In this document: positions 10,079 through 60,229 of the stretch, in pieces | How the letters are laid out: each line of letters opens with the position of its first letter | Numbering within the stretch: position 1 is the first letter of the stretch | Virus record (IMG/VR): IMGVR_UViG_3300021964_000022 | Span: 1 to 64,000 of that record | Direction: 5' to 3' (one strand) | Length of the DNA: 64,000 nucleotides | DNA from: a virus | Notes under the pieces: generated by a model | Told to the model about the DNA's origin: nothing | The model's database searches: none | Seen by the model: only the letters and a program-made list of their open reading frames with translations | Made by a program: the position numbers and the translations under genes

Positions 10079-10511
10079 GTTCTTCAGCCAATTGTTTGAG
10101 TTCTTTTTTTGTAGATGTTCCAGCAAGTAATTCTACCTCGTCTAATTTCATATTCGGATAAATCTGTTTGATAAGTTTAATGCCAGATGCAATGTTCTGA
10201 CCTTCTTTTTTCTTTACGCCTATCCAAGGATGGTACTCTATCTTGCCTGTGCCTCCCGACAAGCATAATAGTTGCCATTGTAGTTTTGGATGTTTACTAA
10301 CAACCATATAGTTTTTATTATAGTATTCGTTAGTTTTAAATATAGCAAGTTCTTGTTTGTCTCTATTGCCTGCTATACTTGCAACATATCTATTTAACAA
10401 CCAAAAACTAACTGACTTCTTTTCGTCATCATTAATTTCGTCCCATACATTCTTAGCACCCATATCAATGGCCGCTAGTATATCTTTTATTGGGAGTTTT
10501 GTTTGTGCCAT
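10056..10511 (-). CDS. 62: Probable sliding-clamp loader small subunit, gp62-like
   Basis: The N-terminus LPIKDILAAIDMGAKNVWDE and the following FWLLNRYVASI and KHPKLQWQLLCL segments resemble what I remember of the gp62 proteins of marine T4-like phages, which with gp44 load the gp45 clamp. At 151 aa it is somewhat shorter than T4 gp62 (187 aa). It has no ATPase motif, as expected for the small subunit. The gene overlaps kdsB at its start and the zinc-finger gene at its end, in the early operon from 12229. gp44 and gp45 are not in this window. The call rests on recalled similarity and needs a profile search. Confidence 0.55.
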   Translation of the reverse strand: MAQTKLPIKDILAAIDMGAKNVWDEINDDEKKSVSFWLLNRYVASIAGNRDKQELAIFKTNEYYNKNYMVVSKHPKLQWQLLCLSGGTGKIEYHPWIGVKKKEGQNIASGIKLIKQIYPNMKLDEVELLAGTSTKKELKQLAEEHGIDIKL

Positions 10512-11164
10512 TGTTTTAGATCCTCGGGTGTGTTAATTTCTGTTCCATTAAATTGAACTTCAACACAGCCAATTTCAATACCATTTTGTATCCAACGTAG
10601 TTGTTCAAGTTTTTCAATTTCTTCTTCTCTGCTTGGTTTTGATTCTTTTAGTATTTGTGCTAGACCTGACCTATAACCATAAATGCCTAAGTGCCAATCA
10701 CCGTATTCTAAACTTGCTCTACAAAACCAGTTAGCATAATCTCCTGTACGTATTAGTTTAACACAATTAGGATCTTTTTGCAACCTTTTTTCCATAGTTG
10801 TGTACGCTGTTGTTACATCATATAAGTCCAATTTATCTTTAACTGCACGTATAATTTTTCTATTGATGTCAGGCATATCACCTTGTACGTTTATTACTTT
10901 ATCATATGTGTTCGGCAGTTGTGATAATGCACCAAAGCATCTTTCAGTGCCACTTTGATAATCTCTGTCATCTACAATCGTTTGTCCTTCTGGAATAACA
11001 TCTGCTACACGTTGGTCATCAGTTAAAACAAATGTGTCAATATCAGCAGGACAATTATCGTATACTCTACGTACCATTGGCACGCCGTCAAGTAATGCAA
11101 GTGGTTTCTCTGGAAACCTTGTACTTGCCATTCTAGCGGGTATAAGAATAACGCACGATTTCAT
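10487..11164 (-). CDS. kdsB: CMP-3-deoxy-D-manno-octulosonate (CMP-Kdo) synthetase
   Basis: The enzyme activates Kdo: CTP + Kdo gives CMP-Kdo + diphosphate. The N-terminus VILIPARMASTRFPEKPLA (nucleotide-binding loop, residues 5-23), VLTDD near residue 47, the SGTERC motif and the VINVQGDMPDI segment are typical of KdsB. At 225 aa it is slightly shorter than the E. coli enzyme (248 aa), mostly in the C-terminal half. It overlaps kdsA by 32 bp, giving a two-gene Kdo module. Such genes are known in a few marine myoviruses. In Gram-negative cells CMP-Kdo feeds lipid A-core and some capsules. Confidence 0.92.
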   Translation of the reverse strand: MKSCVILIPARMASTRFPEKPLALLDGVPMVRRVYDNCPADIDTFVLTDDQRVADVIPEGQTIVDDRDYQSGTERCFGALSQLPNTYDKVINVQGDMPDINRKIIRAVKDKLDLYDVTTAYTTMEKRLQKDPNCVKLIRTGDYANWFCRASLEYGDWHLGIYGYRSGLAQILKESKPSREEEIEKLEQLRWIQNGIEIGCVEVQFNGTEINTPEDLKQWHKQNSQ

Positions 11165-11906
11165 CTACGACCCTTTCAAAGTTATCTAGTCTAAGCATAT
11201 TTGGACCATCGCTTGGCGAGTTATCAGGCACAGGGTGGACTTCGAGGAAGAAGGAAGTGATGCCAAGAGCAGACCCAGCACGAGACAGCCCAGGCACGTA
11301 ATCACGATTCCCGCCGCTACTGTTCCCCAGTCCTCCGGGTTTTTGGACAGAGTGCGTAACATCAAACACAATATCGTTATCATAATTATTGAGCATATAG
11401 ATAAGACCAGTATAGTCGACAACAAGACTATTGTAACCAAAACTTGTACCCCTTTCAGTTATCCAGACATCCTTTGCGCCTTCAGTTTTACTTAGTATTC
11501 CTTCTACGTCCCAAGGTGCTAGGAACTGTCCTTTTTTGATATTTACTATTTTATTTGTTTTGCATGCCGCTTGTATAAGATCTGTTTGTCTACACAAGAA
11601 TGCAGGAATCTGTAATACATCAACTGCATCATTAAAGTATGCGGCTATTTTTAAAATTTCATTTTGATTATGTACATCGGTTAATGTTTTAATTTTGTAT
11701 TTTTCTTTTATTAGAAGAAAGTCTTTCATTGTACTAGCAAGTCCTTGACCGCGAACTCCGTTCACACTTGTACGGTTTGCTTTATCGTAACTTGCTTTAA
11801 AATAATATTCGATATTATGTTTGTCACATACACGTTTGCATTCTTTTGCAATTTCTAAACTTTGCTCTAGTGTTTCATGTTGACATGGTCCTGCTATAAT
11901 TCTCAA
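11133..11906 (-). CDS. kdsA: Kdo-8-phosphate synthase, metal-dependent type
   Basis: It condenses arabinose-5-phosphate with phosphoenolpyruvate to give Kdo-8-phosphate. Landmarks: IIAGPCQHE (C8 is the metal-binding cysteine of the metal-dependent class, where E. coli has Asn), YFKASYDKANR, LTDVH, LQIPAFLCRQTDL, NIKKGQFLAP, FDVTHSVQKPGG (His ligand), FFLEVHP (Glu ligand) and NSPSDGPN (Asp ligand). At 257 aa it is short but complete. The start is TTG at 11906 after AAGGAGAAAACA, overlapping the cupin stop (TTGA). No KdsC phosphatase or KdsD isomerase is visible in the window, so the host may supply those steps. Confidence 0.93.
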   Translation of the reverse strand: MRIIAGPCQHETLEQSLEIAKECKRVCDKHNIEYYFKASYDKANRTSVNGVRGQGLASTMKDFLLIKEKYKIKTLTDVHNQNEILKIAAYFNDAVDVLQIPAFLCRQTDLIQAACKTNKIVNIKKGQFLAPWDVEGILSKTEGAKDVWITERGTSFGYNSLVVDYTGLIYMLNNYDNDIVFDVTHSVQKPGGLGNSSGGNRDYVPGLSRAGSALGITSFFLEVHPVPDNSPSDGPNMLRLDNFERVVDEIVRYSYTR

Positions 11907-12229
11907 TGTTTTCTCCTTCCGTCAAACACACATACAAAGTAACATCCATTTGGACCTGAGTGTACACGATGAAATACTCCATCTTCAATTAGTACTACAT
12001 CATTTTGTTTGACGCTTATTGTTTTATCGTCTAAATCCATTTTACCACTTCCTGATATAAAGTAATATACTTCTTCTTGACCTTCGTGCTTATGTCCACT
12101 AGTAGATTTATATGGTTGTAAATCTGTACTACTTAATACTAAGTTGTTTAAATGTGTATTATCCTTAACAACATACCTATCATCTTTTTTAGCAACTGTG
12201 CCGCCGACGTTTTGAATTTTAACTTTCAT
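11903..12229 (-). CDS. Single-domain cupin, sugar-isomerase-like (108 aa)
   Basis: The cupin metal site is visible: GHKHEGQEEVYYFISGSG (first motif, H-x-H and a Glu) and VLIEDGVFHRVHSG (second motif His). Small cupins of this kind are often sugar-nucleotide epimerases or isomerases or ligand sensors. It is the first gene after an early promoter and directly precedes kdsA, with a TTGA overlap, so a role connected with Kdo or another sugar is plausible. The mRNA has a leader of about 15 bases with an AAGGA ribosome site before the ATG at 12229. Confidence 0.8.
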   Translation of the reverse strand: MKVKIQNVGGTVAKKDDRYVVKDNTHLNNLVLSSTDLQPYKSTSGHKHEGQEEVYYFISGSGKMDLDDKTISVKQNDVVLIEDGVFHRVHSGPNGCYFVCVFDGRRKH

Positions 12230-12485
12230 AGTTTCTATCCTTAATAATATAGTATATATTGACTAGTTTGTCAAGTTGTTTTTTTAAAGTTATGTTAGTT
12301 TGGGCAAGTTCACATAACTCTTTCCACGAACCATAGTCTAATAGCTCGCCTTGTGCCCTTGCAACAGCACCAGGGTCTCCGCCTATGATCCAACGTTCGA
12401 TCTCAGGCTTGTCGCGATAACGAGCATAGACAACACCGTCGCTACGCTCGTATATCAATTCTTCTCCGGGTAGTAAAGTACCCAA
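12219..12485 (-). CDS. Small conserved-looking protein (88 aa), unknown
   Basis: The only workable start is TTG at 12485; there is no internal methionine. The N-terminus GTLLPGEELIYERSDGVVYARYRD, a beta-strand-rich stretch, then RWIIGGDP and a leucine-rich C-terminal helix suggest a small folded domain. I do not recognise a family. The gene ends within the early promoter of the following cupin operon and overlaps the cupin start by 11 bp. It sits 5 bp after the stop of the YhhQ-like gene. Confidence 0.55.
   Translation of the reverse strand: MGTLLPGEELIYERSDGVVYARYRDKPEIERWIIGGDPGAVARAQGELLDYGSWKELCELAQTNITLKKQLDKLVNIYYIIKDRNYES
12246..12274 (-). promoter_or_regulatory. Early sigma70 promoter
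   Basis: TTGACA (12274-12269), 17-bp spacer, TATATT (12251-12246) on the minus strand. It lies inside the 3' end of the 88-aa gene and would drive the cupin-kdsA-kdsB-gp62-like-zinc finger-def-DnaE-like operon. Confidence 0.82.
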
Positions 12486-12490
12486 ATCAT

Positions 12491-13183
12491 CTACGCCTTT
12501 TTCTTAGCTGTCTTTTTAGCCGGTGCTTTCTTTTTAGCTTTCGGCTTTACTTCGTCTTTAAGTACTAAAGCGTCTACACCAAACTTGTTTTTCAAATATG
12601 AAAGTAACAAGCCGTATGCTGGTAGGAACACAATTAAGCCTACAACAATTTTTGTTAATGTATTGTTGAATGCTACTGGTCCAACCCACGGTGCAGGATA
12701 AAATGCTGTGTAAAAGAATGCATATGTATCAATAATGTTTGCCGCAATAGTTGATACTGCTGGAGCAATCCACCATGCACTCATACGCTCACGAATATGT
12801 TGGAATACATATACGTCAAGCATTGTACCTACTGCATATGCAGTACCTGATGCAAGTCCTACTCTGTATGCATGTTCGTCACCTAGTGCTAGTAGTACTA
12901 GTACTGATGCAATAATAGCAGGAATAATTGCCATTGCTACAACGGCTCTACCTGCTTGCTTACCAACTAAACGCACTGTCAAGTCAGTTGCTACAACAAC
13001 GATCGGAAATGTAAACGCCGCCGCCGCTAGTGGAAATGATCCAAACAATGGCAGTTCTGCGCCTGGAAATAGATCAAATCTAATTGTCACTAAGTAATTA
13101 CTAACTGCAATTACTAGTGTGTGTAGAATCACAAGATTCCTTACAAGCGTCTTGTCTACACCTTCTAAAAGTTTTGTTAACAT
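12491..13183 (-). CDS. yhhQ: Queuosine-precursor transporter, YhhQ/QPTR family
   Basis: Six hydrophobic segments can be read (about residues 14-34, 44-72, 82-103, 110-128, 135-160, 172-195), and the region FTFPIVVVATDLTVRLVGKQAGRAVV matches the conserved TD-x-x-x-x-x-G part of the family (PF02592). Members import 7-deazaguanine precursors (preQ0 or preQ1), used for tRNA queuosine and, in some phages, for DNA modification. The C-terminus is unusual: about 20 residues of Lys/Ala repeats (KKKAPAKKTAKKK) that would lie in the cytoplasm. The start has AGGAGAACAT before ATG. No other 7-deazaguanine gene is visible in the window. Confidence 0.85.
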   Translation of the reverse strand: MLTKLLEGVDKTLVRNLVILHTLVIAVSNYLVTIRFDLFPGAELPLFGSFPLAAAAFTFPIVVVATDLTVRLVGKQAGRAVVAMAIIPAIIASVLVLLALGDEHAYRVGLASGTAYAVGTMLDVYVFQHIRERMSAWWIAPAVSTIAANIIDTYAFFYTAFYPAPWVGPVAFNNTLTKIVVGLIVFLPAYGLLLSYLKNKFGVDALVLKDEVKPKAKKKAPAKKTAKKKA

Positions 13184-13194
13184 ATGTTCTCCTG

Positions 13195-13545
13195 TTATTT
13201 TACTTTTGTTCCGACAGTTCTACGCACAATATCATTGTGGTTGAATTCTGCCCAATAAAGTTCAAAGGCAACTCCGTCTTCGAGTCCTTCGAACTGATGG
13301 ATCTTACCAGGCTTAACCTGTGTAAAATCCCCTGCTTCAAGAATGGTTTCATCTACGAGACCATCTTGATCATCTTGCCAAACACGGACAATCATCTTGC
13401 CCGATTCAACAAAGAATCCGTTCCATTTAAATTGGTGTTCATGTTCCGAACACTTAAAACCTTTTTTATATTCAATACGATGAAACTCTAGTACACCGTT
13501 TGCGTGGATCAATTCTGTTTGACCCCATATCTTTCCTGCCTTCAT
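13195..13545 (-). CDS. Single-domain cupin (116 aa)
   Basis: Cupin motif 1 is visible in KGFKCSEHEHQFKWNGFFVESG and motif 2 in FTQVKPGKIHQFEGL. The fold and size fit mannose-6-phosphate-isomerase-like or regulatory cupins that bind a metal through the histidines. It overlaps the start region of the 2OG-oxygenase-like gene by 4 bp and precedes the YhhQ gene by 11 bp. Its role is unknown; the partner genes suggest a small-molecule or sugar modification set. Confidence 0.75.
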   Translation of the reverse strand: MKAGKIWGQTELIHANGVLEFHRIEYKKGFKCSEHEHQFKWNGFFVESGKMIVRVWQDDQDGLVDETILEAGDFTQVKPGKIHQFEGLEDGVAFELYWAEFNHNDIVRRTVGTKVK

Positions 13546-14111
13546 TTTGACTCTCCTATATCATATTCAAAATCACACACTAGTACTTTCCTATCAAATT
13601 GTGTAGGATAAGTTCCATGATATACCATGCCGTCCATTAGTACAACAGTACCTGGTACGGGGTTCCATTGTTCCATTTTAGTCTTTTGTCCGTCAGCAAC
13701 AATAGCAAATAATGTTCCTGGTTCTAGCATATGGTTACCTGATACGTGTCCTTCTAAAAATAATACAGTTGTGAATACGTTCGGACTTTCATGTCGATGT
13801 ACTCCGACAAATGTATTTTTAAATGCAGGATAATGTACCCACCATGTGCGTAATAGTTTTATATTTGTAATTGGAAATTGAGCTTGTACTGACTCTTGAA
13901 TAAATGTTGCATATGCTCCTTGATCAATATCATGCGGGTATGCAAATTCTTTATCACTATAACTATCAGCATCTAAACTACCTGTAGGCAGTTTATATTT
14001 GTAAGCTGGCCTTTTGTCAATATTAAATAAGTCTAAAAACTTTTCATAGCCAGGATACTGTGTATCAAAAAACCAATTTTGATGTATTTTATTATATTCT
14101 TCTATATTCAT
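13542..14111 (-). CDS. Putative 2OG-Fe(II) oxygenase or related double-stranded beta-helix protein (189 aa)
   Basis: The order of motifs fits the 2-oxoglutarate oxygenase fold: FVGVHRHESPNVFTTVLFLEG (first His region with H-x-H), a central strand pair, PGTVVLMDGMVYHGTYPT (distal His) and RKVLVCDFEYD (basic residue for 2-oxoglutarate). An H-x-H in place of H-x-D is unusual and lowers certainty about iron binding. It overlaps by 4 bp the P4H-like gene upstream and by 4 bp the cupin downstream, forming a tight run of three beta-barrel proteins. Confidence 0.6.
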   Translation of the reverse strand: MNIEEYNKIHQNWFFDTQYPGYEKFLDLFNIDKRPAYKYKLPTGSLDADSYSDKEFAYPHDIDQGAYATFIQESVQAQFPITNIKLLRTWWVHYPAFKNTFVGVHRHESPNVFTTVLFLEGHVSGNHMLEPGTLFAIVADGQKTKMEQWNPVPGTVVLMDGMVYHGTYPTQFDRKVLVCDFEYDIGESK

Positions 14112-14692
14112 TGTTGGTCGTTAGTTCCTAATCTAAAATTAAGCATATCGCCATTGCCAACAATCCAACCTGTAAGAATATATTTTGTATTACTTATAGG
14201 AGGATTTCCTCTATGTAGATGTGTCCATCCTGCAGGCCAAATTACAACACGACCTTGTTTTGCTTCTACACGTTTACCTTGATATAAAAACTCTGTCTCG
14301 CCGCCTTCTGCAACGTCATTAAGATATATAGTCCAAGCAAGTACACGTTCAACAGTTGCTTCGCCAAAACGTTCAGCATGCCATAAATGGTATCCTTCGC
14401 CTGACTTTGGTTCGGTTCTTTGCATAACGCATAGGCTACTTAATAAATCTCTATTCTTCAAATAAGGAAAGTCTTTTGCATAATCTTCTAAGCATGGACC
14501 TAGACAATTATAAATGTTATCAACAAAATCTTTACGTGTGCCATCTAATGCAATTTGTGTATCGCTAATAGCACCACTATTCCTTTGGACCATTCTACCC
14601 GAAGTACTTGCTGATTGAAACCACTTAACTAGTTCTTCAACCAATTCTTTAGGTATTCTATTATCGTATATTCGAATAAAATCTTCTTCCAT
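14108..14692 (-). CDS. Prolyl-4-hydroxylase-like 2OG-Fe(II) oxygenase (194 aa)
   Basis: Landmarks of the P4Hc domain: YHLWHAERFGE (first metal His), TIYLNDVAEGGETEFLYQG (the GGET strand typical of P4H-type enzymes), GRVVIWPAGWTHLHRGNPP (distal His) and a Lys in KYILTGW for 2-oxoglutarate. The second ligand would be Glu in HAE rather than the usual Asp. P4H-type proteins in marine phages are common and their substrates unknown. The start is ATG at 14692, sharing one base with the stop of the preceding gene. Confidence 0.78.
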   Translation of the reverse strand: MEEDFIRIYDNRIPKELVEELVKWFQSASTSGRMVQRNSGAISDTQIALDGTRKDFVDNIYNCLGPCLEDYAKDFPYLKNRDLLSSLCVMQRTEPKSGEGYHLWHAERFGEATVERVLAWTIYLNDVAEGGETEFLYQGKRVEAKQGRVVIWPAGWTHLHRGNPPISNTKYILTGWIVGNGDMLNFRLGTNDQQ

Positions 14693-15198
14693 TAAAATAA
14701 TTCTCCGTATTGTATTAATTCAGTCTGGCGTGTTACGTCTCTAATAAAGTAAGCACACAACGGATCTTTATCCATTGTAATCGGAATCGTTAATAGTTGT
14801 CCGTTCTTTACTTTAGGAAAAAACCACTTGACATCGTTATAAAAATTAGTTACCTTAATGTCTCCAAAGTCTGGCTTAAAGCTGGTTAACGGATTATATA
14901 AAAATGCTTCGAACCCTCTATCTGCTATACTTGTTAATTGTAATACTTCTAAATCATTTCCGCTTTCACTACAACCTACTGCCATGTGCCAATCAATCGG
15001 CATCATTATTTCATTACCTGCTATCTCTAAAACAATCGCCGGACTACTAAAAGATTCTAGAAATATCAAAGGAACGTAAAAAAAGTCTGGCTCTTTTGGA
15101 TCTGAATTATCTAATATACTAAATCTTATATCTTCTTCTAACTCGTCGGGTAGTTGCTGTAGATCAAGCGGTTGGTTTTCTAATGTTAATATTCTCAT
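14692..15198 (-). CDS. Conserved-looking T4-type protein next to uvsW (168 aa)
   Basis: Start chosen at the ATG 15198, which overlaps the uvsW stop (ATGA); a TTG two codons upstream is possible. Recognisable stretches are DIRFSILDNSDPKEPDFFYVP, FLESFSSPAIVLEIAG and DVKWFFPKVKNGQ. I remember similar proteins in other marine T4-like phages in the same position by uvsW, but no function. It looks like a compact beta-rich soluble protein. The close link with uvsW suggests a role in recombination-dependent replication, which is inference. Confidence 0.6.
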   Translation of the reverse strand: MRILTLENQPLDLQQLPDELEEDIRFSILDNSDPKEPDFFYVPLIFLESFSSPAIVLEIAGNEIMMPIDWHMAVGCSESGNDLEVLQLTSIADRGFEAFLYNPLTSFKPDFGDIKVTNFYNDVKWFFPKVKNGQLLTIPITMDKDPLCAYFIRDVTRQTELIQYGELF

Positions 15199-17858: not shown

Positions 17859-17864
17859 GTAGCT

Positions 17865-17893
17865 ATTATACTATATTATAGCAATGATGTCAA
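17865..17893 (-). promoter_or_regulatory. Early sigma70 promoter (leaderless)
   Basis: TTGACA (17893-17888), 17-bp spacer, TATAAT (17870-17865) on the minus strand; six bases then separate it from the ATG at 17858. It overlaps the 3' end of the KpsS-like gene and would drive the uvsW operon. Confidence 0.88.
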
Positions 17894-18724
17894 GTGTTTA
17901 ATAGGTATTCCTTGAATTATTTCTTCAGTAGTCCATTCGGTGTGTGCGTAGTCATTAAGCCATTGTGTTCGATCTGGCATTAAAGGCTGTTCTATATCAT
18001 GTAAAAAGTCTATGTCATTGCCTACATCATAAGCAAGACTATTATTGCTAACAAAACTAGGAACACCGTTGATGACAGAATGAATCCCAGGATTGCTACT
18101 CCAAGAAATAGTAGCATGTATATTATCAAAAGCCATATCAAAATCATCATAAGTGCCATCTAATTGCCTTGGTTCCTGTCTTGTTACATGCCTAAGTCCA
18201 CGTTCGATATGTTCTAATCTACAACGTGGGTGTGGCCGAAATATAATTGGCCTATCTGTGTGTTTTCGAATCTCATCGTAAGTATTAAGAAACCAGTTGC
18301 TCATACGAGGCATGTTTTGCCATTGTAAACTCTTATCATGCTGTCCACATATAAGAATGTATTTGCCTTCAGTACGCCAGGGCTTTACTTCGAGTCCCAG
18401 TAAACGCTTACGGCTATCATCGTTATTGCCATCCCCAAAATAAGCATTTCTATTAATTCCATTTAGTCCTACCTTCCAAGTGGATCCTCGGCGTATTCCA
18501 CCAACTTCTAATACTATTGTTGGTTTACCTTCGGCTTGGTTTCGTTCCCATATAGCTTGGTTTCCAGCCATACGACCGTTCCAAAGTACGCTCCAAATAA
18601 CATCAATCCCGTCGCTACCATTAATAACAACATCATGTTTAAGAGCATTAGCACCAGCATGAAAGGCATCAAACACAGGCTTGCTATTGAGAGCACCAAA
18701 TCTTTCATGTAAATTAAACCTCAT
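17876..18724 (-). CDS. Capsule-type glycosyltransferase, KpsC/KpsS-like (282 aa)
   Basis: The C-terminal half carries the GT-B-like pattern of capsule polysaccharide proteins of the KpsC/KpsS type: KHTDRPIIFRPHPRCR (an R-P-H-P motif) and then ATISWSSNPGIHSVINGVPSFVS, where a conserved Ser/Asn and a GVP-like loop follow a strand. KpsC and KpsS use CMP-Kdo, and the same phage makes CMP-Kdo through kdsA and kdsB. It lacks any membrane segment. It overlaps the GT-A gene upstream by 11 bp and is the last gene of the sugar operon. Acceptor and linkage are unknown. Confidence 0.65.
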   Translation of the reverse strand: MRFNLHERFGALNSKPVFDAFHAGANALKHDVVINGSDGIDVIWSVLWNGRMAGNQAIWERNQAEGKPTIVLEVGGIRRGSTWKVGLNGINRNAYFGDGNNDDSRKRLLGLEVKPWRTEGKYILICGQHDKSLQWQNMPRMSNWFLNTYDEIRKHTDRPIIFRPHPRCRLEHIERGLRHVTRQEPRQLDGTYDDFDMAFDNIHATISWSSNPGIHSVINGVPSFVSNNSLAYDVGNDIDFLHDIEQPLMPDRTQWLNDYAHTEWTTEEIIQGIPIKHLTSLL

Positions 18725-19553
18725 TCCAATACGATTCTGGTCTATGTTGAACTAAATCTTTTGCTAGGCTTTTACCAGAATCTTTCCTCCCGCCTTTCAT
18801 ATGATCAAACCATGTGCCTAAAACACAGTTAATTAGCGGATGTCCTCCGCCACCTGTTTTAGCAGTTCTGTTAACAATGTTTGCTGTATAGTCTAATACA
18901 TTGTTGTCGATATCTCTTAATTGATTAAGTATGTGTCCAAACACATAACTGTCGTGCCATTCTTCCAATTCAAATATACCATTATTGGCATCTTCATAAA
19001 ACCTTTCAAACTCTTTTAAAAACTGTATGCACATTGGATGTCTTAAATTCATACCATAGAATCCACACTCCGGCCAACTACGAACATCTTTGCCTCTGCC
19101 AACAAATGTTAACCATTTATCATTAGGTAATAGTTCAGCAAACTCTGCATAACTTATATTGTTATGTACGTAAGTATCTGCATCCATCCAAATTAACCAA
19201 TCTGTTTCTTTATCTTCTGCGGCATGAAATACAGCGTAAACTTTATTAGCAAAGCGTACTGCGTCCCATTTAAATTCTTTATGATGATCTCTTGGACGTC
19301 TTTCAGGGAATGGACATTTACCATTTGCTTTAGGTACATCTTTCCAACGCTCTTTAAATGCATTTAGTTTTGGTAGATTATGTCTTGCATCATATATGTC
19401 AACATGGCCACCATTTGATTGTGGCAAACAGTCTTCGGCATATACCTTTAATTGTATTTTTGGATCTACACGTTCTGCATAGCTATCTATAAAACGCTGT
19501 CCATATTTAACTAGTCCTGGTTGATGGAATGTTGTTACTGCTGTTATTTTCAT
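18714..19553 (-). CDS. GT-A type glycosyltransferase (279 aa)
   Basis: From the ATG at 19553, which overlaps the preceding stop (ATGA), the protein begins KITAVTTFHQPGLVKYG. The metal-binding D-x-D motif is in WLIWMDADTYVHN, followed by CGFYGMNLRHP, EEWHDSYVFGHIL and the late TWFDHMKGGRKDSGKS, which probably binds the donor phosphate. A paralogue lies at 23522-24322 (WIDCDVY, CGFVGYN, THDSYVFD, LTHVKGDDKDR). Donor and acceptor cannot be told. Its place between KpsC-like genes suggests that they build one glycan. Confidence 0.75.
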   Translation of the reverse strand: MKITAVTTFHQPGLVKYGQRFIDSYAERVDPKIQLKVYAEDCLPQSNGGHVDIYDARHNLPKLNAFKERWKDVPKANGKCPFPERRPRDHHKEFKWDAVRFANKVYAVFHAAEDKETDWLIWMDADTYVHNNISYAEFAELLPNDKWLTFVGRGKDVRSWPECGFYGMNLRHPMCIQFLKEFERFYEDANNGIFELEEWHDSYVFGHILNQLRDIDNNVLDYTANIVNRTAKTGGGGHPLINCVLGTWFDHMKGGRKDSGKSLAKDLVQHRPESYWNEV

Positions 19554-20491
19554 TTTAATATCGCCCAATTTTTCATATGTTGCCAACATGCTCCTGACTT
19601 TAGCTCATCTAATCGCCAATGACACATTGCTATTCGTTGTATCCAAGTTTCTCTGTCAAAGTGTCTTGGATTTTCTATTTCGTTTAAATCTGTATGTGAT
19701 ACAGGTCCTGCTTGTGCTTTCATAGGATCGGTTACAAATGTAGGTATACCTTCGATTGCGGCCGCTACTGTTGGACTACTATTATGATTAACTACACAAT
19801 GAGCGCCAGCAAAGTCTGCCATTAATGGCCTTGTTCGTTCACTAATAGTTACATTGTTATGACCAAGTCTACTTATTTTTAATGCATGATCTTTTGCTTT
19901 CTTATCTCCAGGATGTAATCTAATACGTATAGGTCTATCAGTTACTCGTTTAATTCTAAGTATCATAGGATGTAACCAAGGAACAACATGTTTCCCTTCC
20001 ATACTCCAACCACCGTCACGTTGACAACAAATTAAAATATGATTGCCATCTTTTCTATTTGGCTGAAGTTTTAATCCTAGATCTTTTTGTATTTGTTGCC
20101 ATCTACGTGGGTCCGGATGATCCCAACAATATTCGCCACTATCACAAAATACACCATCGTAACTATATCTTAAATAAGTTCTAGTGTTTGACGGGTCTGC
20201 ATATAAAAATAAATTTGCATCTGCAATAATAGTACGCTTGTTTTTATTTTTTTGATTCTCTAATACTTGTCTACGTAAATCTAAATGCGGAACATGTTTA
20301 CTTTGTGGATGCACAAATCCTTGTAGGATTGCTACATCACTAGGGTAGTGATGGAAGTTATCAATTACTTTACCATCGTCGCCGCTTTTACAAACACCTT
20401 CTATAAAATATTTTAATAATCTTGGTTTTTCTGAATTTGAATTGCCGGGCGGTATTCCCTTCATATATGCGTTTACAGTTAATCTACTCAT
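19550..20491 (-). CDS. Capsule-type glycosyltransferase, KpsC/KpsS-like (313 aa)
   Basis: Landmarks are VTDRPIRIRLHPGDKKAKDHAL (R-L-H-P motif near residue 195), followed by GAHCVVNHNSSPTVAAAIEGIPTFVTDP, the Ser-Ser/GIP loop shared with the other three KpsC-like proteins of the window, and a C-terminal helix WIQRIAMCHWRLDELKSG. The N-terminal half (DVAILQGFVHPQSK, RTIIADANLFLYAD) is a Rossmann-like domain. It overlaps its neighbours by 4 bp each side, so it belongs to the operon driven by the late promoter at 22734-22741. Confidence 0.62.
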   Translation of the reverse strand: MSRLTVNAYMKGIPPGNSNSEKPRLLKYFIEGVCKSGDDGKVIDNFHHYPSDVAILQGFVHPQSKHVPHLDLRRQVLENQKNKNKRTIIADANLFLYADPSNTRTYLRYSYDGVFCDSGEYCWDHPDPRRWQQIQKDLGLKLQPNRKDGNHILICCQRDGGWSMEGKHVVPWLHPMILRIKRVTDRPIRIRLHPGDKKAKDHALKISRLGHNNVTISERTRPLMADFAGAHCVVNHNSSPTVAAAIEGIPTFVTDPMKAQAGPVSHTDLNEIENPRHFDRETWIQRIAMCHWRLDELKSGACWQHMKNWAILK

Positions 20492-21294
20492 AGCTGATGT
20501 TCCTCTTGTAGCCTTAATGCAATTCCTTGCATTAATTCAATGGGTGAATATTGTTGATATGCTATCCAATTCCAAAACGATCTTACTAAGTCTTCGTCTG
20601 GGTACTTAGCATTATCAATAGTGGATAAATCTGTACTACATATAACATCACCTGCATGTGGGGCCATTGTAAATGCAGGTATACCATAATGTACTGCTTC
20701 CAATGCCGCAATACTATTATAGGTTACTACAGCATATATTCCTTCTCTTGCACACTGAGATCCTATACTATTATCTTTAATACGTTCTGAGCGTAGCCCT
20801 TTGTCTCTAATTTTTATTGGTCTATCTGTATACTTTCGAATCTTCTCAATAGTTTCTGTTACCCATGTATCTCTATCTATTCCGTAATACTGACACGGTT
20901 TGCCGCTTGGAGTAACTAGCAATATAGGTCCTGACTGTGTAACTTTTTTTCCGTGATAAACTAACCAAGGACATAAAGAAACTTGGCCGCGCCATCTGTC
21001 TCCGGGCAGTTCCTTAAAACGTCCGATATGCTGTATATCGTTCTTTACAACTCTATAAAAAAATTTCCTCTTCATACTATTGCCCATATAACCATTGTCA
21101 ATATAATAAAAATCTCGTTTACTATCTTTTAATAAACTATGCATAAGTTTGCGTTTAGTCATACTACGAAATGCAATAGGAATGCTTTCGTCATATTGGT
21201 TAAGGTTTTTCTTATCAATCCATGTTGAGTTTGCACCTGATGCCCATAACTTCATTATTTCGTCGTTTGGGTCTAAGCACAACATATTAGTCAT
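20488..21294 (-). CDS. Capsule-type glycosyltransferase, KpsC/KpsS-like (268 aa)
   Basis: This is a close paralogue of 24983-25786: both have RDFYYIDNGYMGN or the equivalent, VTPSGKPCQYYGIDRDTWV, KYTDRPIKIRDKG, then AVVTYNSIAALEAVHYGIPAFTMAP and NWIAYQQYSPIELMQGIALRL. The SIAALEA-x-x-x-GIP loop matches the C-terminal GT-B domain of KpsC/KpsS capsule proteins. Both lack the usual R-P-H-P and have an RDK sequence at that position, so they form a distinct subgroup. It starts at ATG 21294 within an ATGACTAA overlap with the preceding gene. Confidence 0.62.
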   Translation of the reverse strand: MTNMLCLDPNDEIMKLWASGANSTWIDKKNLNQYDESIPIAFRSMTKRKLMHSLLKDSKRDFYYIDNGYMGNSMKRKFFYRVVKNDIQHIGRFKELPGDRWRGQVSLCPWLVYHGKKVTQSGPILLVTPSGKPCQYYGIDRDTWVTETIEKIRKYTDRPIKIRDKGLRSERIKDNSIGSQCAREGIYAVVTYNSIAALEAVHYGIPAFTMAPHAGDVICSTDLSTIDNAKYPDEDLVRSFWNWIAYQQYSPIELMQGIALRLQEEHQL

Positions 21295-21961
21295 TCATCA
21301 TATCCTGTAGTTCTTGTTTCCATAATTCATTAAATTCACAGTTCCTATAGTTTTCAAACCAAGGACCGCCTTCTGTATAATGTATTAGTTTTGGTTTTTC
21401 AATATCATCATATACACCTACTAGATAGTTCCATGTGTGATCAATGCTACCAATTTCTTCATCTTTTAACCAACTAAAGCGATGCATATATGCGCCGTTA
21501 AGTTCAATTTCGTTTACAAAGTCTTGATTAACAACTTTATTACTAGGGTGTCCGCAGTTCCAAAGTACCATACTACTCCAATTCTTACGTGGATAGATAG
21601 TTTGTTTTTGTCCGTCCATCTTTGTAGTTTCAGTTACTTTGTAATCATGTTGCACACACATTACAGCATACTTGTCATCTGCTTGATCAAATAGTTCTTT
21701 GATGTCTGTTGTAAGTATCATGTCACTGTCCATAAACACTGCCCAACCTTTAAAGTTGCATAATTCAGGAATAAGAAAACGTGTAAAAGTAAACTCAGTA
21801 CTTGCTAACTTATCAATAGGTCTATTATACCATCCTGCATCTCTTAATTCTTGTTGCTTGAGAGGACGTACATCAGCTTCTGGTGATTTGGTTAAGATAC
21901 TGTGCTTACATACTTGATATGCAATATCTTCTCTAGTATCGTATCCTACAAATACTTTCAT
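21287..21961 (-). CDS. GT8-like glycosyltransferase (224 aa)
   Basis: MKVFVGYDTREDIAYQVCKHSI, FTRFLIPELCNFKGWAVFMDSDMILTTDI (D-x-D metal and nucleotide-sugar site) and the late DHTWNYLVGV plus KLIHYTEGGPWF match the glycosyltransferase family 8-like proteins found in T4-like phages and lipopolysaccharide clusters. These use UDP- or other nucleotide-sugars with retention. It overlaps the nucleotidyltransferase-cupin gene by 1 bp and the KpsC-like gene by 8 bp, so the three are co-expressed. Confidence 0.82.
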   Translation of the reverse strand: MKVFVGYDTREDIAYQVCKHSILTKSPEADVRPLKQQELRDAGWYNRPIDKLASTEFTFTRFLIPELCNFKGWAVFMDSDMILTTDIKELFDQADDKYAVMCVQHDYKVTETTKMDGQKQTIYPRKNWSSMVLWNCGHPSNKVVNQDFVNEIELNGAYMHRFSWLKDEEIGSIDHTWNYLVGVYDDIEKPKLIHYTEGGPWFENYRNCEFNELWKQELQDMMND

Positions 21962-22728
21962 TAATTTCTCCTTTCAATATCTTCTTCTATGCACTCACTA
22001 CCCCATTGTAATTCTAGTATGTGTGCATTTTCAGTGCCGGGGTTTGAAGCTTTGTGCCATACTTCGACTCCAATTTCATATGGGTTTGTATGAGGCTTTA
22101 GTAATAACGAGTCTTTATTATTGTTATACTCTGTATCCATTTGTACTTCACCTTCTAAAACAATCCATTGTTCTGAGCGTTTAAAATGTTTTTGATCACT
22201 TAGGCTCTTGCCTGGATATATTACTAGTTCTTTTACTTTATATCCTTTTTCTGGTTTGTGATCTAATACACGCCAGTAACCCCAATCACGCATTGTCTTA
22301 GGATTTTTAAATTCTTCTAGAATCCAACTACTTGAATTCTTTTTATCATCGCCGCCAACACCGTATACAAAAGTTAATTCACCAGTATTGTCGTCAAATA
22401 ATTCAGGAATATTATCTGCTTGTCTATCTCCGCCATTGGCAAAGATAATTTCGTTATCTGGATAAATCTCTCTAGTTTTAACAATAGCGCCTGTAGCACT
22501 ACCATCGTCATCGTTAAAATTAATAACTCTATCTACACATTCTAATGCTTCTATTATAGTGGCACGCTCGTTCCATGTCATAAATGCTTTACCTTTTTTA
22601 CGTGCTAACCATTCGTCGGAGTTTAATCCAACAACTAATTTTTTACCTAAAGCCTTTGCGGCTTTAAAGTATGATATATGTCCTGAGTGAAGTGGATCAA
22701 ATCCACCTGTAACTAATACTACATTCAT
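21961..22728 (-). CDS. Sugar-phosphate nucleotidyltransferase fused to a cupin (255 aa)
   Basis: Residues 1-135 form a cytidylyltransferase-type domain: VLVTGGFDPLHSGHISYF (H-x-G-H, residues 14-17), VVGLNSDEWLARKKG and NERATIIEALECVD, as in the adenylyltransferase half of HldE and in glycerol-phosphate cytidylyltransferases. Residues about 150-250 form a cupin similar to the C-terminal domain of type II mannose-6-phosphate isomerases (GYKVKELVIYPGKSLSDQKH, SEQWIVLEGEVQM, GVEVWHKASNPG). One protein could therefore isomerise or bind a sugar phosphate and activate it. A perfect TATAAATA late box lies 6 bp before the start, so it heads the late sugar operon. Confidence 0.82.
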   Translation of the reverse strand: MNVVLVTGGFDPLHSGHISYFKAAKALGKKLVVGLNSDEWLARKKGKAFMTWNERATIIEALECVDRVINFNDDDGSATGAIVKTREIYPDNEIIFANGGDRQADNIPELFDDNTGELTFVYGVGGDDKKNSSSWILEEFKNPKTMRDWGYWRVLDHKPEKGYKVKELVIYPGKSLSDQKHFKRSEQWIVLEGEVQMDTEYNNNKDSLLLKPHTNPYEIGVEVWHKASNPGTENAHILELQWGSECIEEDIERRN

Positions 22729-22733
22729 GTTAG

Positions 22734-22741
22734 TATTTATA
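22734..22741 (-). promoter_or_regulatory. Late promoter box TATAAATA
   Basis: A perfect T4 late box on the minus strand (22741-22734), with CTAAC between it and the ATG at 22728. It would drive six overlapping sugar genes down to 17876. Confidence 0.78.
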
Positions 22742-22755
22742 TACCTACATAACTA

Positions 22756-22763
22756 CTAAATAT
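22756..22763 (+). promoter_or_regulatory. Weak late-type promoter box CTAAATAT
   Basis: The plus-strand ACTAAATAT is near the late consensus and sits 4 bp before the ATG of the pyruvyl-transferase-like gene, the spacing seen at other late starts. It forms a divergent pair with the box at 22734-22741. Confidence 0.4.
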
Positions 22764-22767
22764 TTTT

Positions 22768-23547
22768 ATGGCAATAATAATACATAGAGACGATAAATCT
22801 AATGCAGGAGACTACTGGGCAAGGCCTAGCCATTATTTTCCTATTAAAGAAGACAAAATTTTAGATATTGAAAAACTAAAACCATTTCAAACAGAACAAA
22901 CAATAATCATCGGCGGCGGCGGATTATTAGGTAGACCTAAGTGGACTGAAGTTATAGAAGAAATAAGCAAAAATAATAAAGTTATCTTATGGGGGGCAGG
23001 ACATAATATGTATACTAATAAACGAATATCATATACAGTTTGTAGTCCAGTAAAATCTGAACTTCCATCTTTTATGAATAATTTTACAAAGATAGGATTA
23101 CGTGATTACAATATGGGATACAACTGGGTTCCTTGTCCGAGCTGTATGCACACTGCTTTTAACAAAGCGATGAAAGTAAAAAAAACAAAGGATACAATTG
23201 GTATTAGACATAAAAAATTAAAGATGAGGACTGATTTATTTAAAATAATATCTCATGTTCAGAAGCCTGAGGACCTAGAAGAATTTTTATGTAATATTGC
23301 ACAATATGAAAACGTAGTTACTAATACATACCACGGAGCATACTGGGCTATGTTATTAGGTTGCAAAGTTATATTACAACCTTGGTCTAGTAAGTTTAAT
23401 GACTTAGGATTTAATTACGGAACAATAAAAAATGATGTTTCTAATTATAGAGCAATATTAGACACTATTAAACCAAACAACAATGCATTAGATATTGCAA
23501 AAGATGCTAATAAAAAGTTTTTTACTTCCTGTGAATATTTGATATAA
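22768..23547 (+). CDS. Polysaccharide pyruvyl-transferase-like protein (259 aa)
   Basis: The motif order fits the pyruvyl-transferase family (PF04230): DDKSNAGDYWARP near the start (NAGD), TIIIGGGGLLGRPKW, VILWGAGHN, then a C-terminal VVTNTYHGAYWAMLLGCKVILQP, the His-Gly loop that binds phosphoenolpyruvate or donor. These enzymes add ketal pyruvate to sugars of capsules and exopolysaccharides, giving acidic groups. It is alone on the plus strand inside a minus-strand sugar region and its 3' end overlaps the convergent glycosyltransferase gene by 26 bp. Confidence 0.75.
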   Translation: MAIIIHRDDKSNAGDYWARPSHYFPIKEDKILDIEKLKPFQTEQTIIIGGGGLLGRPKWTEVIEEISKNNKVILWGAGHNMYTNKRISYTVCSPVKSELPSFMNNFTKIGLRDYNMGYNWVPCPSCMHTAFNKAMKVKKTKDTIGIRHKKLKMRTDLFKIISHVQKPEDLEEFLCNIAQYENVVTNTYHGAYWAMLLGCKVILQPWSSKFNDLGFNYGTIKNDVSNYRAILDTIKPNNNALDIAKDANKKFFTSCEYLI

Positions 23548-24322
23548 AAGTCTTAGTATGAAGTTTTGCTTGTTGATTACGATCACGTTTCATAGCCTTT
23601 TGTATCATCCTGTCTTTATCGTCACCTTTAACATGAGTTAGATACTGGCCAATTTTAGAAGTTGCCATAGGATTTTTATCATCAGTTCTTGTAGAATTTA
23701 AATCAACAAATTGTATTGGTTGCCCAAACTTTTTACGTGCTATGTCAAACACATAACTGTCATGTGTTTGTTCTAATTTTTCTAGATTGTTAGCATGATA
23801 ATAACTTTCAAAAAGAGAAACAAAATCATATGTTCCTTTTTGCCAAGTATTATACCCTACAAACCCACACTCACTGTGTGTATCAAATCTTCCTATGTAA
23901 CTTACTAGTTTACCGTTAGGCATTAATCGATCTAATTCTAATACTGAAAACTCTGTTTGACAATAGACATCACAATCGATCCAATATACTTTTTGATTTG
24001 GATGTTCTTTAAGAAATCTAAACAAAGGAAATATTTTATTACTAAATTTTATAGCGTCCCATCTATAATTGTAGCTAGGTTTTTTACCATTATAATATTC
24101 ATTATTTTTGTGCTTTTTTTCAAACGCTAATACTTCTGGACACTCTCTATGCAAATTATGAAATTTAACTCTAGTACTAAATCCTCTTGGATTGCCTAAG
24201 TCTTCGCTGTACACATGTATTTCAACTTTGTTAGGAAATCTTTTATCCCAACTAGTTAACGTATAACAAGCACCTTCGTCAAAATATTTCTTATTCATAC
24301 TTGTAACTATTTTATGATACAT
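23522..24322 (-). CDS. GT-A type glycosyltransferase (266 aa), paralogue of 18714-19553
   Basis: Shared landmarks with the gene at 18714: VYWIDCDVYCQ (D-x-D site), CGFVGYNTWQKG, EQTHDSYVFDIA and YLTHVKGDDKDRM near the C-terminus. The N-terminus (KIVTSMNKKYFDEGACYTLTSW) is the first Rossmann strand and helix. It starts in a TAATG overlap with the FkbM gene and is followed by the convergent pyruvyl-transferase-like gene. Substrates are unknown. Confidence 0.72.
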   Translation of the reverse strand: MYHKIVTSMNKKYFDEGACYTLTSWDKRFPNKVEIHVYSEDLGNPRGFSTRVKFHNLHRECPEVLAFEKKHKNNEYYNGKKPSYNYRWDAIKFSNKIFPLFRFLKEHPNQKVYWIDCDVYCQTEFSVLELDRLMPNGKLVSYIGRFDTHSECGFVGYNTWQKGTYDFVSLFESYYHANNLEKLEQTHDSYVFDIARKKFGQPIQFVDLNSTRTDDKNPMATSKIGQYLTHVKGDDKDRMIQKAMKRDRNQQAKLHTKTFISNIHRK

Positions 24323-24999
24323 TATCTTTTTACCTTTGGATCAGCTGTCATAATTAAACTTTTCCTTACATTACTAGTCCATTCTAAAGGTCGATATCCT
24401 AGTTTAGCAAGTGTGCGAATTGGATCACCGTATTGTTGACCATATCGAGCACCGTGTCCTTTATTTTCAAATAAAATCAAAGGCTTAGTATTAGCAATAG
24501 TTTGTAAGCCACCTTCTAAGACTTTAGTTTCATACCCTTCGACATCTATTTTAATAAAATCAACATCAGTAATATTAAAACTATCTAATGTAGTTATAGG
24601 CAAGCTCCCTGGGCCAGATGCTACGTGTGTACTTAATGTTTTTGTTGTACGCACAAGCGATACAGATTCGTTAGTGTTGCCTAGACCTGTTTTATGTAAT
24701 TCGACATTACTTACATTTTGCGTTTTTAAGTTAGTTTCAAAGCAATGATATAAACTAGAATCAATTTCAAATGCATGTATTTTATTAAATTTTTTAGACA
24801 TTTGATAAGATAGCATACCAATATGTGCTCCAACGTCAAGAGCAGTGCGCCAAGATTTTAAATGTCGTAATGCTTTATTAAGTTCGTCTGATTGATATAA
24901 TGCAGGAGTTTCATAGTTTTTAATTGCTGTGCGTAATGACACATCACCGCTAGTTGTTATCCAACCTTGAGCTTCGATGTATTCATTGTGCTTTTGCAT
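24322..24999 (-). CDS. FkbM-family methyltransferase (225 aa)
   Basis: The S-adenosylmethionine site is visible: ALDVGAHIGMLSYQMSKKF (motif I), KIHAFEIDSSLYHCFE (motif II with acidic Glu), and VDFIKIDVEGYETKVLEGG, the FkbM signature (I-K-I-D-V-E-G). FkbM-type enzymes usually O-methylate sugars or polyketides. It overlaps the KpsC-like gene upstream by 17 bp and the glycosyltransferase downstream by a TAATG. A second FkbM gene lies at 25788-26507 with the same architecture but limited identity. Likely target: a hydroxyl of the phage-directed glycan. Confidence 0.88.
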   Translation of the reverse strand: MQKHNEYIEAQGWITTSGDVSLRTAIKNYETPALYQSDELNKALRHLKSWRTALDVGAHIGMLSYQMSKKFNKIHAFEIDSSLYHCFETNLKTQNVSNVELHKTGLGNTNESVSLVRTTKTLSTHVASGPGSLPITTLDSFNITDVDFIKIDVEGYETKVLEGGLQTIANTKPLILFENKGHGARYGQQYGDPIRTLAKLGYRPLEWTSNVRKSLIMTADPKVKR

Positions 25000-25786
25000 G
25001 TAATTCTTCTATCAAGCGTATAGCTGTCCCATCACTCATTTCCTTAGGAGTATATTGGCAATACGCTAACCAATTTTGCCATGCTACAACTTTATCTTCA
25101 TCCGGATAAAAAGGTGACTCAATATCACTAATATTTTTTGTACATAATTTACTTGCTGATCCTGGAGCAGTTGCTATTGCAGGAACACCACAACTTAATG
25201 CTTCAACAGCCGCTATACTATTGTATGTAACTAAGCAATGTATTTTTTCATTTACTAATTGTACAGGTACGCTATTGTCGCCTACACGTAAGACTCGACC
25301 TACCTTGTCACGCACAATAATTTTCCTGTCAGTATACTTTTTTAATTCTGCAACTGTTTTTTCAACCCATTCATCTCTATCAATGCCGTAGAATATACAA
25401 GGTTTTGCAGAAGGTGTTACAACAAGTACTGGGCCGTCAAACTTTTTCCAACCTCTAAATCTTAGGTTTGATTCTGCATTTGGTAGTTTTAAAAATCGAT
25501 CCTCAGGCAAGTCATAATTAGGAATCATGTTTTGTACATTATTTTTAACTATACGATGCCACTCTTTACGCTTTTGTAGGTTTCCCAAATAACCTGTATC
25601 AATGTAATAATAATCTCTTTTTTGAGTGTCACACAAATGTATCAACTTACGTTGAGTTAACCCGCGTAATATAACTGGCGTGTTGTCTTCATTCTTTTTT
25701 AAACTAGGGAAGTTTGTAGACTCTACATTGTCAAAACACTTGGCGAAGTCTCCAAGTATAGCATCTTCGGTATCTGTTATATACAT
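24983..25786 (-). CDS. Capsule-type glycosyltransferase, KpsC/KpsS-like (267 aa), paralogue of 20488-21294
   Basis: The protein parallels 20488-21294 along its length: KRDYYYIDTGYLGNLQKR, VTPSAKPCIFYGIDRDEWV, KYTDRKIIVRDKVG, LVTYNSIAAVEALSCGVPAIATAP and NWLAYCQYTPKEMSDGTAIRL. The start at 25786 (MYITDTEDA) aligns with its paralogue and lies one base after the FkbM stop; an in-frame ATG at 25801 is an alternative. The frame is open to 25894, but that would overlap the FkbM gene by 107 bp. See the paralogue for the family call. Confidence 0.62.
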   Translation of the reverse strand: MYITDTEDAILGDFAKCFDNVESTNFPSLKKNEDNTPVILRGLTQRKLIHLCDTQKRDYYYIDTGYLGNLQKRKEWHRIVKNNVQNMIPNYDLPEDRFLKLPNAESNLRFRGWKKFDGPVLVVTPSAKPCIFYGIDRDEWVEKTVAELKKYTDRKIIVRDKVGRVLRVGDNSVPVQLVNEKIHCLVTYNSIAAVEALSCGVPAIATAPGSASKLCTKNISDIESPFYPDEDKVVAWQNWLAYCQYTPKEMSDGTAIRLIEELHAKAQ

Positions 25787-25787
25787 T

Positions 25788-26507
25788 TTAGGTAAAATCA
25801 TAATATAAGTCTTGTATAATTTGCTGTTTCTGTAAATAAGGATTGGCTCCAAAGTAATTAACACTAGGTGCATTAGGTCCTGACGTAGGAGCAAAAATCC
25901 AACATGTTTTACTTTTACAGTGTAAGGGGCTATAATCTAAACTCTTAAAATATCTTACCATATCATCTACATCTTGATTAGGCTCAAAGATTACCCAAGG
26001 TGTAAATTTTTCTATTGTTTTCTTTGCGCCTTGTATTACAGGCCATTCATAACCTTGGACATCAATTTTAATTAAATTACATTCTTGCAAGTGTTCGTCG
26101 TCTAATTTTCTTACTTCTATTTCGTAAGAGTGTTTCTTTTTCTTGTTAACAATATGTGCATTACCGCAGTTGTCTTCACTGTCAACAAACTGTAAAGTAG
26201 TACTGATATCACCAAGTCCTGCTTCGTGTATTTCAACATCCTGTACGTTATTGTAAAGGCATTCTAAATTACGTGGACTTGGTTCGTAAGCAATTACTTT
26301 ATTAAATTTTTTTGAAAGAGGATAGGACCAGATACCGATATTAGCACCAACATCAACAAATGTACCAAATTGAGGTAATGCTTCTAGTATTAATTTTCTT
26401 ACTCTGTATTCATATGTTGGGGCTTCTTTGTCTAGATTTTCAATTACGTGACTTGTAATTTTCTTTTCATTATCTGGTACATACCACCCGTTGGCTAATT
26501 GGTACAT
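25788..26507 (-). CDS. FkbM-family methyltransferase (239 aa)
   Basis: Motif I is FVDVGANIGIWSYPLSKKF, motif II VIAYEPSPRNLECLYNNV, and the FkbM signature is CNLIKIDVQGYEWPVIQGA. The opening (YQLANGWYVPDNEKKITSHV) is an N-terminal cap typical of the family. The gene begins with ATG at 26507 with a GAGGACAA site upstream, 66 bp after the uvsY stop. It heads a run of overlapping sugar genes (FkbM, KpsC-like, FkbM, GT-A) on the minus strand. No late box or sigma70 promoter of good quality precedes it, so readthrough from the uvsX-uvsY operon is possible. Confidence 0.88.
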   Translation of the reverse strand: MYQLANGWYVPDNEKKITSHVIENLDKEAPTYEYRVRKLILEALPQFGTFVDVGANIGIWSYPLSKKFNKVIAYEPSPRNLECLYNNVQDVEIHEAGLGDISTTLQFVDSEDNCGNAHIVNKKKKHSYEIEVRKLDDEHLQECNLIKIDVQGYEWPVIQGAKKTIEKFTPWVIFEPNQDVDDMVRYFKSLDYSPLHCKSKTCWIFAPTSGPNAPSVNYFGANPYLQKQQIIQDLYYDFT

Positions 26508-60221: not shown

Positions 60222-60229
60222 TATTTATC
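60222..60229 (-). promoter_or_regulatory. Late promoter box GATAAATA
   Basis: Minus-strand GATAAATA (60229-60222) lies inside the 3' end of the GmhB-like gene and would drive the fibre genes down to 50852. Confidence 0.75.

Follow-up and report, generated by a model that had tools for sequence, protein, structure and literature searches.

Can a phage supply the activated sugar CMP-Kdo (cytidine monophosphate-3-deoxy-D-manno-oct-2-ulosonic acid) and also encode the glycosyltransferases (GTs) that use it? The question is raised by the viral record IMGVR_UViG_3300021964_000022 of IMG/VR, of which positions 1 to 64,000 (the window), part of a 110,012-base sequence, were analysed. The initial annotation had proposed that a kdsA-kdsB pair makes CMP-Kdo, that four nearby proteins share the C-terminal GT-B-like loop of the capsule linker enzymes KpsC and KpsS, and that the phage accordingly makes a Kdo-containing glycan. 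The six genes are intact open reading frames (ORFs) in overlapping runs on the minus strand, at the positions first assigned to them. The four transferase candidates are called K1 to K4 here, for the genes starting at 17876, 19550, 20488 and 24983, respectively:

10487..11164, minus strand: KdsB-like CMP-Kdo synthetase, with E-I-N where bacterial KdsB has x-V-D (family scores, PDB matches, motif counts)
11133..11906, minus strand: KdsA, Kdo-8-phosphate synthase (curated scores, PDB alignment, tree)
17876..18724, minus strand: K1, KpsC-fold GT (AlphaFold2 model, profile, motifs)
19550..20491, minus strand: K2, KpsC-fold GT by profile, closest in sequence to KpsS/KpsC (profile, motifs)
20488..21294, minus strand: K3, KpsC-fold GT, fused to GT8 in relatives (AlphaFold2 model, motifs)
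24983..25894, minus strand: K4, K3 paralogue with the same motif state as K3 (sequence, motifs)

Since the first ~35 codons of K4 overlap the neighbouring gene, its true start may be internal.

Fold and catalytic motifs of the four transferases

The four TRANSFERASES (K1-K4) are paralogous, and their families are joined by profile comparison at ~100% probability. K3 and K4 are 43% identical over 266 amino acids (aa), while the other pairs show 22-30% identity over 110-182 aa, with E values between 1e-6 and 1e-13 (the database was small). These pairwise and profile matches argue that the common C-terminal domain is not due to chance. Membership of the Pfam family of KpsC and KpsS is another matter: none of the four proteins matched PF05159 at E values up to 1, and the record as a whole had no match to it. 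Pfam, PHROGs and NCBIfam returned nothing specific for the four proteins, and profile searches of the PDB with them returned nothing. Kinship emerged from profile comparison with a KpsS/KpsC alignment, composed of 32 modules that were picked by motif among the PF05159 matches of 150 genomes from the phylum to which SAR11 belongs. The K2 family matched it at 95.3% probability, K3/K4 at 89.5% and K1 at 77.7%, against at most 3.3% for eight other families of the same loci that served as controls; the motif-based choice of modules does not bear on these. The alignment with KpsC, in which the profile is led by a phage relative with canonical motifs (L087), covers the general-base segment (EDGFLRS versus KELPVLRS).

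Predicted structures point the same way. In Foldseek searches of the PDB, the AlphaFold2 models of K1 and K3 (predicted local distance difference test scores of 91.5 and 91.9) matched only KpsC, KrkA and WbbB at ranks 1-25 and 1-23, respectively, with best E values of 1.9e-6 and 3.8e-6, both at probability 1.00, and probabilities of 0.99-1.00 across the top matches. TM-scores of ~0.4-0.6 are consistent with a common fold with shifted domains. The modified GT-B fold of the retaining Kdo transferase superfamily (GT99/107/140) is thus found in the K1 and K3 models and assigned to K2 by profile alone. The initial annotation had named a missing KpsC fold in predicted structures as grounds for refutation, and the two models do not show this outcome. 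Among the viral fold matches are Tetraselmis virus 1 proteins that carry the annotation capsule polysaccharide biosynthesis. Altogether, the K proteins are almost certainly true remote homologues of KpsC/KpsS with a KpsC fold, so that the kinship initially proposed holds at the level of remote homology and fold, and fails at that of family membership as defined by PF05159 and the catalytic motif.

In the retaining Kdo transferases, the Asp of the QXXXD motif that defines GT99, GT107 and GT140 forms a covalent Kdo adduct and a (K/R)XHP motif holds the CMP moiety (PMC10148158, PMC12887879). This Asp has been described as invariant and needed (PMC10148158, PMC12887879); the D160A variant of KpsC yields no Kdo adduct, and alanine at either acidic residue renders the enzyme inactive (PMC10148158). 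Both motifs were present in all 25 bacterial PF05159 loci scoring above 60 bits. The nucleophile Asp is missing from all four K proteins, while the CMP motif is present in K1 and K2 and absent from K3 and K4. In K1, Q128-H-x-x-S132 replaces QXXXD and RxHP is kept (R163, H165, P166), both states being found in 50/50 distinct relatives. In K2, the corresponding Q157-R-x-x-G161 is shared by 48 of 51 distinct relatives and RxHP (R191, H193, P194) by all 51. K3 has P129 and R163-x-K165 in place of the two motifs, and 63/64 sequences of the K3/K4 family have neither QXXXD nor RxHP, with no Gln and no HP. The general-base position is acidic throughout: E73 in K1, D91 in K2 (Glu in three relatives) and D66 in K3/K4.

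One candidate for a shifted catalytic Asp, K1 D130 (QHD), is allowed by the KpsC profile alignment; it was rejected because the position is variable, with Asp in 28/50 relatives and Glu, Asn, Ala, Ser, Gln or Val otherwise. Pattern matching also flagged many K1 and K2 members as QXXXD proteins, mostly through another QxxxD upstream, and only four proteins have the motif at the right place. All four (L021, L046, L087, L123) are phage relatives with the canonical QXXXD and RxHP pair; in two of them, the expected region matches PF05159 below threshold.

In the tree, K1, K2 and K3/K4 form separate clades with support of 100, 99 and 97, respectively, the deep order being unresolved, and the canonical phage relatives fall outside all three. 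Three well-supported, conserved clades argue against the K genes being pseudogenes. A search of 197 SAR11-order genomes for K relatives gave three weak matches only, so that no host donor was found there, and eight genomes with KdsA relatives contained no PF05159 match.

Kdo supply by KdsA and KdsB

KdsA passes two curated cut-offs, with 319.9 bits against TIGR01362 (cut-off 314) and 328.2 bits against NF003543 (cut-off 242). Its top PDB matches are Kdo-8-phosphate synthases (E 1.4e-74), aligned end to end, and the active-site motifs KAS.DKANR, PAFLxRQTDL, KKxQF and FGYN are intact in alignment with 3fs2 and 1fwn. These motifs comprise substrate- and metal-binding residues, and the Cys, His, Glu and Asp expected of the metal-dependent (class II) enzymes are all found in the PDB alignment. 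Close relatives are encoded by at least 112 IMG/VR stretches. In a tree of 82 proteins, for which bacteria were sampled non-exhaustively through peptide patterns of the window protein, all 25 sampled KdsA proteins of the marine lineage form one clade (support 100/99) apart from bacteria, on a long stem of 0.86 changes per column. The KdsA of Synechococcus phage S-SCSM2R and that of LR756500 are placed outside this clade, a placement to be read with caution given the long branches of both. A marine phage lineage has thus retained its own Kdo supply long enough for one distinct KdsA clade. Two contigs filed as Candidatus Neomarinimicrobiota (L128 and L129; PBPT01000082 and PBPT01000016) encode 74% identical KdsA proteins; a bacterial origin was rejected on account of their gene order around kdsA, which is that of the phages, and they are probably phage contigs binned with a metagenome-assembled genome.

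The five top NCBIfam families of KdsB are all CMP-Kdo synthetases, each below its cut-off (130 bits against 155.2 for TIGR00466; 169.6 against 193 for the best subfamily model), and every PDB match is a KdsB. Because the curated scores fall under the cut-off, the protein is named KdsB-like and its function inferred. Bacterial KdsB proteins carry x-V-D-T-P-E-D in the C-terminal region, and the Asp of x-V-D, matched here by motif, binds the catalytic magnesium together with one other ligand, both being strictly conserved (PMC3149649). By the same motif-based matching, the equivalent of D95 of A. aeolicus is kept in the phage protein (NVQGD), while that of D219, the other Mg-A aspartate (PMC3149649), is an Asn (E-I-N). 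E-I-N occurs in 57 of 60 distinct viral KdsB sequences; the Asp is kept in 20/20 SAR11-order KdsB proteins and in those of S-SCSM2R and LR756500. Judged from these sequences, the Asp-to-Asn change is lineage-wide in these phages, and the metal may instead be held by the conserved Glu two positions earlier.

Synthesis of CMP-Kdo through KdsA and KdsB is on this sequence evidence very probable, in line with the initial annotation, which had also found neither KdsC nor KdsD and called for host enzymes. TIGR01670 (KdsC) and TIGR00393 (KdsD/KpsF) indeed had no match in the 110,012-base record; KdsD was not found in 24 related records, nor KdsC in 16. As far as the gene content goes, arabinose-5-phosphate and a KdsC-type phosphatase must come from the host. 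KdsB is encoded by 56/58 genomes of the SAR11 order, one possible host group.

Three other genes of the window, all below curated cut-offs, encode an HldE-like kinase/adenylyltransferase (47918-49078, plus strand), an HldD-like epimerase (49056-49889, plus strand) and a GmhB-like phosphatase (60228-60797, minus strand). They suggest an ADP-heptose-type pathway; GmhA was not found in the genome. Together with the kds pair, they give the phage relatives of the supply genes for both inner-core sugars of lipopolysaccharide (LPS).

Gene neighbourhood and source phage

The genes around the kds pair and the K proteins are as follows:

11903..12229, minus strand: cupin, directly upstream of kdsA
13195..13545, minus strand: cupin, kept beside kdsA in most relatives
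18714..19589, minus strand: GTa, putative GT without a Pfam match, 28% identical to 23522-24322 (sequence comparison)
21287..21961, minus strand: GT8-like GT, syntenic partner of K3 (Pfam, synteny)
21961..22728, minus strand: HldE-type nucleotidyltransferase fused to a cupin (Pfam, NCBIfam)
22768..23547, plus strand: polysaccharide pyruvyl transferase-like protein (Pfam 26.4 bits, just above cut-off)
23522..24322, minus strand: GTb, GTa paralogue (sequence comparison)
24322..24999, minus strand: FkbM-type methyltransferase
25788..26507, minus strand: FkbM-type methyltransferase

A block comprising K1, GTa, K2, K3, GT8, the nucleotidyltransferase and a cupin recurs on many contigs between uvsX/gp32 and uvsW, and kdsA-kdsB sit just past uvsW relative to it. 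On several contigs, GT8 and K3 are fused into single proteins of 559-581 aa (L017:1088-2830, L023:80-1771, L027:635-2335 and L050:855-2531; also L031, L039, L040 and L042). A queuosine-precursor-type transporter (Vut_1, PF02592; window 12491-13183, minus strand) lies near the kds genes in many relatives. Eukaryotic-type phosphomannomutases (PF03332) occur near kdsA in marine phages at L077:12291-12983, L024:5814-6536 and L078:13237-13965; the L077 and L078 records yielded no K gene. Elsewhere in the genome, a NodU-type carbamoyltransferase (L125:7919-9715, genome 70919-72715, minus strand) stands in a run of ORFs that are radical S-adenosylmethionine-like and, by eye, amidinotransferase-like. 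The ORF at L125:10259-11314 (genome 73259-74314, minus strand) has by eye the look of a GT9 heptosyltransferase, which neither Pfam nor NCBIfam supports.

The record belongs to the T4-type myoviruses by its structural genes, which encode tail sheath and tube, portal, major head protein and terminase. Over the major head protein it shares ~70% identity with jumbo phages (Sinorhizobium phage Phosso, Vibrio phage 2.275.O and Pseudomonas phage PA5oct). The phage is taken to be a marine T4-type myovirus of jumbo type. Since contigs of syntenic relatives reach 262 kb, the record is probably incomplete, and gene absence in it is therefore weak evidence.

Proposed pathway, rival explanations and known systems

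The gene identities, the fold, the motif states and their conservation are observed; for the donors, the chemistry, the glycan and its site, we infer a chain in which KdsA would convert host arabinose-5-phosphate and phosphoenolpyruvate to Kdo-8-phosphate, a host KdsC-type phosphatase would dephosphorylate it, and the phage KdsB would form CMP-Kdo. K1 and K2 would be GT-B transferases whose RxHP motif binds a CMP-ulosonic acid, most likely Kdo and most simply the CMP-Kdo of the neighbouring kds genes, with the acceptor activated by E73 or D91, respectively. Because the CMP motif and the acceptor-activating acid are kept and the nucleophile is lost, transfer would proceed by one-step displacement instead of the double displacement of KpsC; that K1 and K2 use CMP-ulosonates at all seems to us evenly balanced. 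K3 and K4, being without the Gln and the HP, probably use another donor; the sugar that they would transfer, alongside the GT8 protein and the nucleotidyltransferase, is most likely not a CMP-ulosonic acid. With the methyl- and pyruvyl-transferase homologues, the K proteins would assemble a glycan, or add its cap, at the surface of the infected cell or on the virion; on the cell it could serve superinfection exclusion or receptor masking. A surface glycan is the probable product, one that would mask receptors or keep other phages out, in line with the 'lock-out' idea cited earlier for marine viruses carrying KdsA (PMC5332604). A surface-glycan island is the best explanation of the region, while the whole chain, from Kdo supply to a phage-directed surface glycan, is plausible but on balance a little doubtful.

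Several observations weigh against this chain. Among 24 records of at least 42 kb, recruited via either gene, 14 contain both kdsA and K genes, six kdsA only and four K only, and one record (L094) lacks both kds genes in an otherwise kept gene order. Strict coupling was thus rejected, the genes being apart in 10/24 records; donor supply and K transferases are not tightly coupled, and because the gene sets occur apart in several phages, the link is plausible and not obligatory. In addition, the record yielded no canonical Kdo transferase, KdsB activity is not assured because its metal-ligand motif is altered, and CMP-pseudaminate or CMP-legionaminate would suit the HP motif equally (GT118, PMC12887879). 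Of the initial Kdo-glycan proposal, CMP-Kdo synthesis, the KpsC fold and host dependence are supported, while use of CMP-Kdo by all four proteins is not.

How else could the locus be read? That K1-K4 are ordinary retaining beta-Kdo transferases of KpsC/KpsS type, making a Kdo linker or oligo-Kdo as initially supposed, would fit the fold, the profile homology and the kdsA-kdsB genes nearby; it is nevertheless very unlikely, since no K protein has the QXXXD Asp whose loss abolishes the adduct in KpsC, K3 and K4 have no HP, and PF05159 finds none of them. The lost nucleophile, with a CMP motif in only two of four proteins, would also suit non-catalytic lectin-like or scaffold descendants of such enzymes, which are just as improbable given that Q, RxHP and the acidic residues are invariant across divergent K1 and K2 relatives and that GT8-K3 fusions are typical of bifunctional GTs. 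A stronger contender holds that none of the K proteins takes Kdo: K1/K2 would use a different CMP-ulosonic acid and K3/K4 ADP-heptose-type or UDP-sugars, with kdsA-kdsB serving separately, for instance to sustain host LPS or to feed an unlinked GT. The records with K and kdsA apart, the acceptance of CMP-pseudaminate by the fold in KpsS1 (GT118, PMC12887879), and the HldE-, HldD- and GmhB-like proteins with the HldE-type nucleotidyltransferase adjoining K3 all speak for it, and a synteny block common to most records speaks against, as does a search, not exhaustive, in which no CMP-pseudaminate or CMP-legionaminate synthesis genes were seen; we consider it possible, if on the unlikely side.

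It could also be that kdsA-kdsB act as auxiliary metabolic genes whose sole effect during infection is a higher flux of host CMP-Kdo into LPS, with no phage-specific glycan. SAR11-order genomes encode KdsB, six phages have kdsA without K, and kdsA and kdsB rank among the commonest viral LPS genes listed for the surface ocean (PMC10653327); the GTs, methyltransferases and cupins conserved nearby and the single long-lived phage KdsA clade make this view unlikely. A bolder reading comprises at least three new KpsC-fold families of marine phages that gave up the covalent Asp nucleophile, with K1/K2 as non-double-displacement (perhaps inverting) CMP-Kdo transferases and K3/K4 as CMP-independent enzymes, supplied by a phage-specific KdsB whose metal ligand is relocated; taken together, these proposals are rather less likely than not. 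What can be said is that a KpsC fold without the invariant Asp persists across many phages, with the CMP motif intact in two subfamilies. The K families offer natural variants for testing gain or loss of the double-displacement mechanism, and the phage Kdo supply makes testable a remodelling of the Gram-negative surface or the virion with Kdo by phages.

Viral kdsA/kdsB genes have been listed earlier (PMC5332604 and PMC10653327, and PMC9529941 for kdsB). The T4-like virus TARA_ERS478052_N000008 encodes KdsA and a 'NeuA' CMP-sugar synthetase, for which surface modification has been hypothesized (PMC5332604); in the portions of PMC5332604 and PMC10653327 at hand, no mention was found of transferases with the KpsC fold, of lost motifs or of an altered KdsB. 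Nor did the searchable literature yield an account of nucleophile-lacking phage KpsC-fold families or of the KdsB motif change. Bacterial and S-SCSM2R KdsA/KdsB perform the same two steps from adjacent genes, but S-SCSM2R differs in both proteins: its KdsA, on a long branch, is not part of the marine-phage clade, and its KdsB has retained the Asp. In stretch L250 of this cultured phage (PQ898602.1 202927-221601), kdsA and kdsB are adjacent and convergent beside GTs and 2-oxoglutarate oxygenases, and no K-family protein was found. Proteins of the CcrColossus group, Pelagibacter phage Mosig, DSL-LC06 ('KpsC') and Tetraselmis virus 1 are homologues by sequence or fold, the Mosig and DSL-LC06 copies scoring as K3-type and lacking the HP. 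We know of no tested function for any of them.

Among characterized enzymes, KpsC (GT107) and KpsS, the PF05159 enzymes of the group 2 capsule linker, have a GT-B fold and share their C-terminal domain with the K proteins, together with RxHP and a position-equivalent Gln in K1/K2 and an acid at the general-base position. The K proteins differ in having no Asp nucleophile and a single small module of ~270-310 aa that falls under Pfam detection, K3/K4 lacking the Gln and HP as well. KpsS1 (GT118), a retaining pseudaminyltransferase, indicates that the fold can take another CMP-ulosonic acid (PMC12887879); it shares 30% identity with E. coli KpsS (PMC12887879), while the K proteins lie below PF05159 detection. 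WbbB (GT99) and KrkA (GT140) are recovered by the same fold matches and likewise belong to modular GT fusions, as does GT8-K3 in phage relatives, but they keep the QXXXD motif that the phage subfamilies have lost.

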